26,879 nt of DNA from a virus: IMG/VR virus record IMGVR_UViG_3300006880_000047, positions 1 through 26,879 of that record, one strand, 5' to 3'. The notes beneath the pieces are model-generated. The model was given only the letters and a program-made list of their open reading frames with translations. It did not search any database and was not told the DNA's origin. Of this stretch, positions 908 through 26,028 are shown piece after piece. How positions within the stretch are numbered: position 1 is the first letter of the stretch; each line of letters opens with the position of its first letter. A program made the position numbers and the translations under genes.

Positions 908-950
908 GACCGAAGGAATCTATCTACCTATCATCGCAAAGGAGTCCACG

Positions 951-1715
<765 letters not shown>

Positions 1716-1849: not shown

Positions 1850-2260
1850 ATGCCTAGATTACCACGGAAACGCAGAAAAACCACGCCGGATGAGCGCCTT
1901 ACTCCCTGCCAATGTTGCGGGCATCCTGTTTCGCAGCGACATCATGAAGATGCTGTACATGCGTGGGGCGAAAACAAACAGACTACCCAGCTGTGCGCGA
2001 ACTGTCATGAAGGGGTCCACATCATTGAGCGCGCGTGTATTGATATGGGCGCAGGTAAACACGACACCCCGTCGATTATTCTGATGATCACACTACGTGA
2101 CTATTGGGGAGCAGACAGTCCGCGATTCGAGTTCCTCTGTTCCCTTTATATGGACAGAAGGGACATGTATATAGCACTGAATCGAAGGATCTACGAAGAA
2201 AACCGGTCGCTCTGGGACAAGATGAGAGAGATTATGGAAGGCACCGAAAGCGAGGAATGA
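1850..2260 (+). CDS. HNH endonuclease, zinc-ribbon type
   Basis: The 136-aa protein has C-x2-C at residues 20-23, then R-H-H-E (H31/H32), then C-x2-C-H at 49-53 with N51 and H57. This is a zinc-stabilised HNH (beta-beta-alpha-metal) nuclease core in which H32, N51 and H57 are candidate catalytic or metal residues. Such small phage HNH proteins nick or cut DNA, as homing endonucleases or packaging helpers. The C-terminal half is charged and helical. The gene is markedly less GC-rich than its neighbours, starts from its own predicted promoter, has ribosome site AGGAG at 1839-1843, and splits parA from its likely partner, so it looks recently acquired. Its stop overlaps the parB-like start. Confidence 0.82.
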   Translation: MPRLPRKRRKTTPDERLTPCQCCGHPVSQRHHEDAVHAWGENKQTTQLCANCHEGVHIIERACIDMGAGKHDTPSIILMITLRDYWGADSPRFEFLCSLYMDRRDMYIALNRRIYEENRSLWDKMREIMEGTESEE

Positions 2261-3363
2261 TGCCTACCAAGCTCGCGCAAATGATCAAAGCGCCGCCGAT
2301 ACGTCAAGGAACGCGCTACCTGGCCGGCGACGAACTCTCGATCGCCGATATTCGCATGGACGGCGGCACCCAGGCGCGCGCCGGACTGGACGAGGAGACC
2401 ATCACGAACTATGCCCTGGCGATGCAGGCCGGCGCGCAGTTTCCGCTGATTGTCGTTTTCCACGATGGCGCGAATCACTGGCTGGCTGATGGGTTCCACC
2501 GGGTCAAGGCCGCCGAGAGAATCGGCCGCGCTGCGATGCGTGCTGACGTGCAATCAGGGACGCAGCGCGATGCAATTCTCTATGCGATGGGCGCAAACGA
2601 CACCCACGGCCTGCCGCGCCGGCGCGACGATCTGCATCGCTCGATCGCGCGGATGCTCGCAGATGAGGAGTGGAAAACATGGAGCGATCGCCGAATCGCA
2701 GAGCAGGTGCATTGTGATCACAAGACGGTTGCGGCGGCGCGCGCGCGCCTATCTGGGGAAGTTCCCCAGATAGCGGCCGAGTCCCGCACGGTCGAGCGCG
2801 GCGGCACAACCTATCAGCAGAAGGCCAAGCGGCCCGCGCCAGCTCGCCCGCCCGCCCCCGAGCCGCCAGCGCCGGCAACCATCACCGTCACCACCGACAA
2901 AGGGACACACGCGATCGTGCCCACGCGCCGGATCGGCGACCTGGCCACACATCCATCCGTCACGCACCCGCACGCCCCCGACGTCGCCTGGTCGATCACC
3001 TATGTGCCGCTCGGCAGCCGGGTTGGCCCCGGCTTTCCAGACCAGCAGACCGCCGAGTCGGCACTCCGGGATCTGGCGACGCTCGATTGGGGCGACATGA
3101 AAGACGGCGTTATCCCCCCGGCGCTCGCCGCGCAGGCCAGAAAGATCCTGGCGCGGCACCGCGGCACCACGGCGATCGCGCCGGCGCCTGTTCCGCCCGC
3201 TTCTATGGCGCCCACGCCGGCGCCACCCACCGGAGCGCGCGACACACTGTTGGTCCGCCCGACGCGGCCCCCACGCGACGACGTCAGCGTGGTGCTGGCC
3301 TACCTGGAGGAACTGGAGGCCTACGTCGATGCGCTGGAGGCGGCGCTGCGCCTGGCCGACTAA
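2257..3363 (+). CDS. ParB-like DNA-binding protein (ParB/sulfiredoxin N-domain plus HTH)
   Basis: A 368-aa protein. Residues about 27-110 form a ParB/Srx-type N-domain with the nucleotide-loop motif D-G-F-H-R-V-K-A-A (78-86), in place of the chromosomal G-E-R-R box. Next comes a stretch with G-A-N-D-T-H-G-L (112-119), and a helix-turn-helix near 143-165 (W-S-D-R-R-I-A-E-Q ... H-K-T-V-A-A-A-R). The rest is a Pro/Ala-rich linker ending in a short coiled coil (about 340-365) that could dimerise. This architecture is common in phage and plasmid ParB-like proteins; DNA binding is expected and CTP use is possible. The frame is open upstream, but ATG-ATG at 2257/2260 overlaps the HNH stop and follows GAGGA, so the start is placed there. 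With parA it may form a partition system. Confidence 0.8.
   Translation: MMPTKLAQMIKAPPIRQGTRYLAGDELSIADIRMDGGTQARAGLDEETITNYALAMQAGAQFPLIVVFHDGANHWLADGFHRVKAAERIGRAAMRADVQSGTQRDAILYAMGANDTHGLPRRRDDLHRSIARMLADEEWKTWSDRRIAEQVHCDHKTVAAARARLSGEVPQIAAESRTVERGGTTYQQKAKRPAPARPPAPEPPAPATITVTTDKGTHAIVPTRRIGDLATHPSVTHPHAPDVAWSITYVPLGSRVGPGFPDQQTAESALRDLATLDWGDMKDGVIPPALAAQARKILARHRGTTAIAPAPVPPASMAPTPAPPTGARDTLLVRPTRPPRDDVSVVLAYLEELEAYVDALEAALRLAD
2749..2773. repeat. 25-bp perfect dyad inside the ParB-like gene
   Basis: Arms CTATCTGGGGAA and TTCCCCAGATAG flank a single central G, giving 12 perfect base pairs. It encodes the stretch L-S-G-E-V-P-Q-I just after the HTH. Candidate binding site for the protein it encodes, or an mRNA hairpin. 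Confidence 0.6.
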
Positions 3364-3458: not shown

Positions 3459-3479
3459 ACAGTAGATAGGATGTGCGAG

Positions 3480-4085
3480 ATGGCAGGCAAGACCGCTGAA
3501 AGCCGCCTGGCCCCGGTCCCACGGGAGTGGCTCGATCTCACGATGCCGGCCTTCCGGGCGCTCGTGGGCGCGGCCTTCGTCATTTTTTCCAGCTATGCGA
3601 CGGTCACGTTGGTCGCGCGGGATCTGTCCCCGATCCTCGGCGATCGCGCCGGCATCGGGCTGTTCGCCGATCGCTACTGGGTCGGCATCGGCCTGGCGCT
3701 CGGCTTCTTTCTGGGCGAGGTCTACACCGCCGAGCGCTGGCCGGCGGCGTACCAGGCCATCCTGGTGCCCGATACGATCTATACCGGGCGCCAGCTCTAC
3801 GCGGGCCTGGCGCTCGCGGTGGCCGTCCTGGCGCAGTCGCCGATCGATCTCCTGATCGTTGGCGGCCTGGCCGCTGCCGGCGCCGCGCTGGTCGCCTACG
3901 GCGTCGGCTGGTCGCTATTCAAGTGGATCATCGCCGGCGCGGCGCTGGTCGGTCTGGTGTTCGCGCTTGGCGTGTTCTGGTCGCTCGCGGCGGCCCGCAC
4001 GACGCTGGCCGTCCTGATGGCGCTCTACACCGGCGGCATCGTGGCTCGCTTCGGCGAAGTATTGCTCTTTGGAAAACGGAGGTAG
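3480..4085 (+). CDS. Polytopic membrane protein, 201 aa
   Basis: Unrecognised family. Hydrophobic segments lie roughly at residues 20-45, 65-85, 105-125, 120-142, 147-165 and 170-190, so five or six transmembrane helices are likely. The short N-terminus is polar and the last residues are basic (F-G-K-R-R), suggesting a cytoplasmic tail. ATG codons occur at 3471 and 3480. The only AGG (3468-3470) abuts the first and is 9 nt from the second, so 3480 is preferred. It ends 3 bp before the next membrane protein gene, so the two probably act together at the inner membrane. It is too large and too hydrophobic for a typical small holin. Function unknown. Confidence 0.65.
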   Translation: MAGKTAESRLAPVPREWLDLTMPAFRALVGAAFVIFSSYATVTLVARDLSPILGDRAGIGLFADRYWVGIGLALGFFLGEVYTAERWPAAYQAILVPDTIYTGRQLYAGLALAVAVLAQSPIDLLIVGGLAAAGAALVAYGVGWSLFKWIIAGAALVGLVFALGVFWSLAAARTTLAVLMALYTGGIVARFGEVLLFGKRR

Positions 4086-4088
4086 GAC

Positions 4089-4655
4089 ATGCCCCAACCC
4101 CAACCACCGCCCGAGCCGACGTTGCTGATCATCGGGGTGATGGTCGTCGCCCTCGTCGGCTGGCTGGCGTTCATGGCGCTGGCCGCCTGGGTCCACCGTC
4201 AGGGCGGCATCGTGGCCGCTGTCGGCGGTCTACTCCAGGCCGCGCGCAGCGGCCAGGCGCGGCGCCGGCGCATCCCACTTCGGGGCAAGCACGGCCGGCT
4301 GATGGGCTCGGCCAGCGTTCGCGCGAGCCGTTCGCCCGTTCGGAACGACCCGAACGAGGGCGAACGCCGTTCGGCGGATCGTTCGGCACCAGAGCGCGCA
4401 GGAACGACCGTCCCGGACGTTTCCCGTTCGCCGGCGATCGTTCCCGATTCCGTTCTGACCGTTCCCGAGATGCTCATGATCACCGCGGCGCTGACGCGCG
4501 GGGTGGCGCCGAGTGAGATCGCGAAGGGGCTGCCGGGCTACTCGGGCGAGCGCTACAAAGTTTATATGGAAAAGGTCAAGAAAACCCAGGCGGTGCTGGC
4601 GGAGATCGGCGCGCCAGAGGTGCGCAAAGAGGCGCCCGAAGCAAAGACGGCATAA
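4089..4655 (+). CDS. Single-pass membrane protein with a cytoplasmic helical domain, 188 aa
   Basis: After a Pro-rich start, one transmembrane helix spans about residues 11-35, followed by a basic stretch (A-R-R-R-R, near 57-61). The middle (about 75-120) is low-complexity and rich in Arg, Ser, Pro and Asp. The last 65 residues are a folded-looking helical domain (P-E-M-L-M-I-T-A-A-L-T-R-G ... G-Y-S-G-E-R-Y-K) that resembles a small winged-helix or HTH region; that is a weak impression. The low-complexity middle is exactly where the DNA carries the CGTTC/GAACG cluster (4316-4465), so its sequence may be dictated by DNA-level selection. It is the last gene of the + strand operon before the palindrome at 4685. 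Confidence 0.6.
   Translation: MPQPQPPPEPTLLIIGVMVVALVGWLAFMALAAWVHRQGGIVAAVGGLLQAARSGQARRRRIPLRGKHGRLMGSASVRASRSPVRNDPNEGERRSADRSAPERAGTTVPDVSRSPAIVPDSVLTVPEMLMITAALTRGVAPSEIAKGLPGYSGERYKVYMEKVKKTQAVLAEIGAPEVRKEAPEAKTA
4316..4465. repeat. Cluster of 13 CGTTC/GAACG pentamers
   Basis: On the + strand CGTTC starts at 4316, 4329, 4337, 4368, 4380, 4425, 4439, 4451 and 4460. GAACG (the complement) starts at 4343, 4352, 4362 and 4402. Spacing is irregular, 6-23 bp between neighbours. The copies fall in different codon phases (gtt-cgc, cgt-tcg, gaa-cgc, gga-acg), so codon bias does not explain them. Candidate iteron-like or centromere-like site close to the par genes. Confidence 0.55.
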
Positions 4656-13074: not shown

Positions 13075-13158
13075 AGCTCTCAGCTGTTAGCTGTCAGCTT
13101 TCAGGAGCCGGATTCCGGAGCTGATGGCTGATAGCTGAAAGCTGATGGCTGAAAGCTA
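13075..13158. repeat. Heptamer inverted-repeat array 1
   Basis: Degenerate 7-bp units of a TGANNGC family (TGATGGC, TGATAGC, TGAAAGC) run along the right half. Their complements (AGCTGTC, AGCTTTC) run along the left half, around a core AGGAGCCGGA-TTCCGG. The whole can fold as a long imperfect hairpin. It fills the gap between major tail protein and chaperone genes, and contains the TAG stop of the former (13156-13158). Confidence 0.75.
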
Positions 13159-23293: not shown

Positions 23294-23380
23294 CGTCAGC
23301 TGTTAGCTGTCAGCTGTCAGCTGTCAGGAGCCGGAACCTTCGAGCTGACGGCTGACGGCTGACGGCTGACGGCTGTTAGC
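23294..23380. repeat. Heptamer inverted-repeat array 2
   Basis: The right half has four TGACGGC units in tandem. The left half has units complementary to TGACAGC. The core AGGAGCCGGA is shared exactly with array 1. The array can fold as a long hairpin. It overlaps the last 21 codons and the stop (23317-23319) of the 89-aa gene, and extends towards the HGG gene. Confidence 0.8.
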
Positions 23381-25995: not shown

Positions 25996-25999
25996 GGCT

Positions 26000-26028
26000 C
26001 AGCAATCAGCAATCAGCAATCAGCAATC
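26000..26028. repeat. Heptamer array 3
   Basis: Four perfect tandem copies of AGCAATC on the + strand (26001-26028), that is TGATTGC on the - strand. It fills the 24-bp gap between the winged-helix gene and the fibre gene, and contains the stop codon of the former (26020-26022). It has no inverted half. It occupies the position where the fibre gene's ribosome site should be. Confidence 0.85.

Follow-up and report, generated by a model that had tools for sequence, protein, structure and literature searches.

We report that a phage gene carries a dense cluster of thirteen short DNA sites, which is under selection at the level of the DNA, and we propose that this array probably acts in cis as the recognition locus of an HTH domain that the 3' end of this gene encodes. 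The window, i.e., the whole stretch of DNA analysed (26,879 nucleotides), is from the record of a tailed phage, and the positions of its relevant features are presented in Table 1.

The CGTTC or GAACG copies start at positions 4316, 4329, 4337, 4343, 4352, 4362, 4368, 4380, 4402, 4425, 4439, 4451 and 4460. The first-pass annotation had counted thirteen of them in about 150 bp and placed them in different codon phases; the count proved to be exact (149 bp), and all three phases are used. Judging from the flanks, the actual site may be YCGTTCS instead of the bare pentamer. The argument of the annotation depended on the pentamer not being equally dense elsewhere, which is borne out, since the whole window contains 66 copies versus 63 expected, the 53 copies outside the array are at chance level for 26.9 kb, and the second-best 200 bp hold 3 copies; hence, the enrichment is purely local. 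In 200 simulated windows (Markov, same dinucleotide make-up) the top pentamer cluster had a log10 p of −6.6, as compared to −15.9 for the real array. Synonymous recoding with the protein fixed and the phage codon usage (20,000 trials) generated a mean of 1.24 sites and a maximum of 6, versus the 13 observed, while the shuffling of codon order yielded a mean of 1.6 sites and a maximum of 8. As both nulls are exceeded, selection acts on the DNA, as the annotation had supposed.

Table 1. Location of the array, of the surrounding phage genes and of the related features in other records.
Feature	Record and position	Strand	Description
ParA-like ATPase	window, 918–1715	+	phrog_164, AAA_31
ParB-like protein	window, 2254–3363	+	phrog_1033
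Small polytopic membrane protein	window, 3471–4085	+	directly 5' of the array gene
TM-linker-HTH protein, 188 aa	window, 4089–4655	+	AlphaFold2 model
Site array	window, 4316–4464	.	13 YCGTTCS-like sites; 9 CGTTC and 4 GAACG; irregular spacing, 6–23 bp
HTH domain	window, 4464–4613	+	homologous to FtsK-like C-termini in Chloroflexia (profile E 1e-9 for L169, 2e-7 for L168)
LPGY HTH type	window, L001, L168, L169		core GTTMC
VCDAAGLL HTH type	L232, L259, L256, L234, L237, L231, L230, L260		core GCTWY
SPNRIAL HTH type	L271, L251, L249		TAC-centred core
ANKIAE HTH type	L246, L241		core CGNACCA
Actin-like-signature protein	L316:11902-13086; L317:3042-4289; L310:9306-10520		beside the FtsK-like cassette

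The array-bearing gene, whose ATG is immediately preceded by a GGAGG-like ribosome site, closes a + strand run that also comprises ParA-like, HNH-like, ParB-like and membrane-protein genes. In the AlphaFold2 model, its product displays a membrane-type helix (residues 10–37), a disordered region (57–124) and three helices (125–173). The array coincides with codons 76–126; it thus lies inside the part encoding the disordered linker, which is Ser-, Arg-, Val- and Pro-rich, and stops at the start of the HTH. Modelled alone, this C-terminal domain of about 55 residues had a pLDDT of 91. Foldseek returned no significant match, and the VIA-align neighbours of the HTH (best Z 6.8), which include GcrA, a paired domain and phage small terminases, support only a general HTH-type arrangement because Z is below 8; we therefore do not assign the domain to a family on structural grounds. 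The absence of FtsK gamma from the VIA-align neighbours listed excludes nothing. Pfam searches of the 188-residue protein found no motor domain (PF01580), and neither Pfam nor PHROGs detected a replication-initiator family in it. PF01580 was not found either in the virus records of the window, L001 and L025, which may be fragments. Elsewhere in the window, tandem 7-bp repeats (AGCTGAT, AGCTGTC, GTCAGCT, GCTGACG and TCAGCAA, all variants of one GCTGA theme) occur in or beside intergenic gaps at 13075–13157, 23295–23375 and 25999–26028.

When the HTH alone served as query, an initial genome scan gave no match. In Chloroflexia genomes, which were reached through the ParB-like domain instead, the HTH profile matched the C-termini of larger proteins, including L169 and L168, the latter from an Oscillochloris MAG. 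The PF01580 motor scored above cut-off in L169, L259 and L232, while L168 gave only a weak P-loop match; when the whole class was surveyed for PF01580, most of the proteins retrieved were chromosomal FtsK. The linkers situated directly before the HTH in L168 and L169 also hold arrays, of TCGTTCC (7) and GGTAAC (7), respectively. Judging from these similarities, the window protein looks like an FtsK-like protein minus its motor.

Searches for sequences closely related to the window protein retrieved a single viral contig (L001, IMG/VR contig 3300005546_000007), and neither phages nor PLSDB plasmids gave a match. The gene order of L001 is that of the window: ParA (98% identical), ParB-like protein, small membrane protein and TM-linker-HTH protein. 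The HTH domains of the two phages are 45% identical, and their linkers are unalignable (z −1.0), yet the L001 linker region keeps an array with the same core, in which CGTTAC (5) is mixed with CGTTCC on both strands. The sites have therefore persisted while the protein drifted, an outcome in line with the annotation. Furthermore, L001:6019-6203 is an orphan copy of the window HTH segment 4473–4657 (97% DNA identity), with a sharp boundary 9 bp past the last window array site, which suggests that the HTH may have been swapped as a module. Another viral TM-linker-HTH protein, encoded by L025 with a GAACA array, retrieved only itself in a relative search. Both L001 and L025 encode integrases, consistent with their being temperate phages.

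We then scanned 39 FtsK-like ORFs of 438–655 aa from Chloroflexia (query L169), a MAG-rich sample whose members are related to each other. An array with log p < −6 occurred in 13 of the 39 gene tails (300 bp near the 3' end), versus none of the 133 other windows of those genes (Mann-Whitney p 8e-9). About two thirds of the tails lack a strong array, among them those of L170, L171, L173 and L183, which have an HTH of the window's type. Each of the eight records examined possesses one array. The core motif goes along with the HTH type (groups drawn by eye; Table 1), in that the similarity of the linker pentamer profiles correlated with that of the HTH (Mantel r 0.66, p 5e-5). Among the pairs with unalignable linkers, the mean profile similarity was 0.174 for the same HTH type versus 0.041 for different types (permutation p 5e-5), part of this signal being shared composition and ancestry, since gene bodies also showed a gap, albeit smaller (0.126 in the same group versus 0.078). 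Our searches of open-access papers turned up no report of these intragenic arrays.

Most of these FtsK-like genes come after a gene for a small polytopic membrane protein, and these upstream proteins form one family. The phage gene upstream of the array gene is similar in position and type; hhalign found no homology between the phage proteins and those of the FtsK elements. The complete plasmids pHAU01 and pHAU02 of Herpetosiphon aurantiacus harbour one array cassette each (Haur_5006-5007 and Haur_5298-5297), with differing flanks and differing sites: one plasmid has CGCTAC and the other AGTAGCAC. The cluster of pHAU01 is weak. On both plasmids, as in L310, the cassette adjoins a conserved protein with actin-like signatures (GxDNGNG, TGGG), suggesting that these cassettes may operate in plasmid segregation. 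As these candidates have weak Pfam matches only and their sequence profile matched no solved structure, regarding them as ParM-like segregation ATPases is a guess from motifs. A tyrosine integrase is present in L306.

From these lines of evidence we propose the following model. The phage protein would be a motor-less cousin of the mobile-element FtsK-like translocases, with its N-terminal helix in the membrane, a flexible linker encoded by the array itself, and an HTH that would bind the short site at its numerous occurrences. Bound next to one another, these copies would hold the DNA of the phage or prophage at the membrane and label it as "self", in the way that TRS repeats in clt serve TraB and KOPS serve FtsK; the role would probably be in segregation or maintenance, alongside ParA/ParB. 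Such a tether may help ParAB or a step of replication or lysogeny, and HTH binding could perhaps repress the gene as well. In the FtsK-like relatives, the contact between HTH and array would load the pump, or start it, on the right DNA, like that of TraB with clt.

Other site clusters were encountered near ParB-like genes. In a Chloroflexota MAG, about 16 alternating ATGCAC/GTGCAT-type sites (L166:2573-2770) lie within a replication-initiator-like gene that has a ParB-like gene in its vicinity; this looks like an intragenic origin of the lambda O type. ACCCT/AGGGT arrays on both strands occur within replication-initiator-like genes of ParB-bearing phages (L071:10494-10630, L067:10139-10251, L034:8616-8728 and L083:11253-11385), and similar genes house a GGTAA array in L035 and an AGACA array in L152. 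We regard these ACCCT, ATGCAC, AGACA and GGTAA clusters, all inside replication-initiator-like genes, as a related but different phenomenon. Three GGCTA-TAGCC palindromes lying 5' of an Arc-like repressor gene (L015:4046-4116) are likely an operator.

The annotation had interpreted the array as a partition centromere (parS) or a replication iteron region, neither of which we favour. Equivalent arrays reside in FtsK-like genes where tblastn found no ParA or ParB within neighbourhoods of 6–21 kb (L306–L311, L316 and L317). A multi-site parS for the neighbouring ParB-like protein would fit with the ParA and ParB-like genes that were claimed, correctly, to lie within 3.5 kb of the array and that are also found in L001. 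It is nevertheless unlikely, because ParA/ParB are absent from the plasmid and mobile-element array neighbourhoods tested, the motif follows the HTH of the same gene, and L001 and L025 were the only ones to have the window-type arrangement among about 80 virus loci collected via the ParB-like gene. What probably stands is the idea of a multi-site protein-binding locus; the choice of ParB as the binder is probably wrong. A role in segregation, making the array centromere-like in a wide sense, is possible. We also doubt that the array is a replication origin with iterons inside an initiator gene, for which the lambda ori inside O (PMC4488673) and the intragenic arrays of L166, L152, L035 and L071 provide precedents, inasmuch as the protein encoded here combines a membrane helix with the lack of any initiator domain, the sites are short (5–7 bp) and irregularly spaced, no adjoining A+T-rich stretch was seen by eye in this G+C-rich region, and the relatives are FtsK-like.

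We give little credence to a purely autoregulatory operator, through which the HTH protein would block its own transcription. The sites do lie 3' of the start codon within the gene of the likely binder, and such repression is compatible with our preferred reading as a side effect, but repression alone should work with few sites rather than the 13, in either orientation, found here, and it leaves unexplained the membrane anchor or motor present on the same chain. A packaging (pac) site for a small-terminase-like protein is very improbable: the phage is tailed and the HTH has DNA-binding domains of small terminases among its best structural matches (Z 6.8), but Z-scores below 8 cannot be taken as diagnostic, the protein has a membrane anchor, and relatives occur in plasmids and integrative elements. 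As for an artefact of codons or of a low-complexity protein, which the composition of the linker could evoke, it is hardly credible, being excluded at the level tested by the two nulls and the use of three codon phases, and related sites recur in spite of unalignable linkers.

Beyond the proposed recognition of the array by the HTH of the same gene, we tentatively put forward a wider proposal, about which we are rather undecided. As a general class, membrane proteins of mobile elements, whether or not they contain an FtsK motor, may encode in their linker the address label of their own DNA, label and reader lying next to each other and diverging together, to constitute a private and transplantable code with built-in incompatibility specificity for each phage or plasmid, such that the element's own DNA alone is tethered or pumped at the membrane. 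If true, the HTH reader and its array target would always be co-inherited and could shift their specificity jointly. This would explain how plasmids and prophages in one cell distinguish their own DNA, and the code by which many HTH domains choose their sites would become readable from sequence alone. The TraB/clt principle would then no longer be confined to actinomycetes and would include phages, in the form of a motor-less membrane tether acting beside ParAB.

FtsK gamma/KOPS and SpoIIIE/SRS combine a membrane anchor, a linker and a C-terminal DNA-reading domain with short repeated sites, the layout observed here. KOPS are polar and chromosome-wide, whereas the present array is one local intragenic cluster with no fixed polarity; a KOPS-like polarity of the array was dropped in view of the mixed orientation of its sites. 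With lambda O and ori lambda (PMC4488673), the similarity is that a protein's sites lie inside its own gene, the differences being the four iterons of 19 bp and the replication initiator of lambda, as opposed to 5–7-bp sites and a membrane protein. ParABS resembles the window phage, where ParA and ParB-like genes lie close to the array gene, and differs from the tested plasmid and integrative-element neighbourhoods, where arrays occur without ParA/ParB. TraB of Streptomyces conjugative plasmids acts at clt via its C-terminal HTH (PMC5365140, PMC3583192, PMC4170104, PMC3218068), a domain that reads 8-bp repeats there (PMC5365140, PMC3583192, PMC4170104), and in pWTY27 clt and the end of traA overlap by 16 bp (PMC3583192). 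The likeness extends to a membrane-associated FtsK-like translocase with a C-terminal HTH for many short repeats on its own plasmid; a cluster of short repeats is found on the present elements too, and the TRS repeats vary between plasmids as the present motifs vary between genes. Unlike clt, the array is wholly intragenic, ahead of the HTH, in both orientations, and the elements are from Chloroflexota; there is no motor in the phage version, and the genetic context points to maintenance no less than to transfer.
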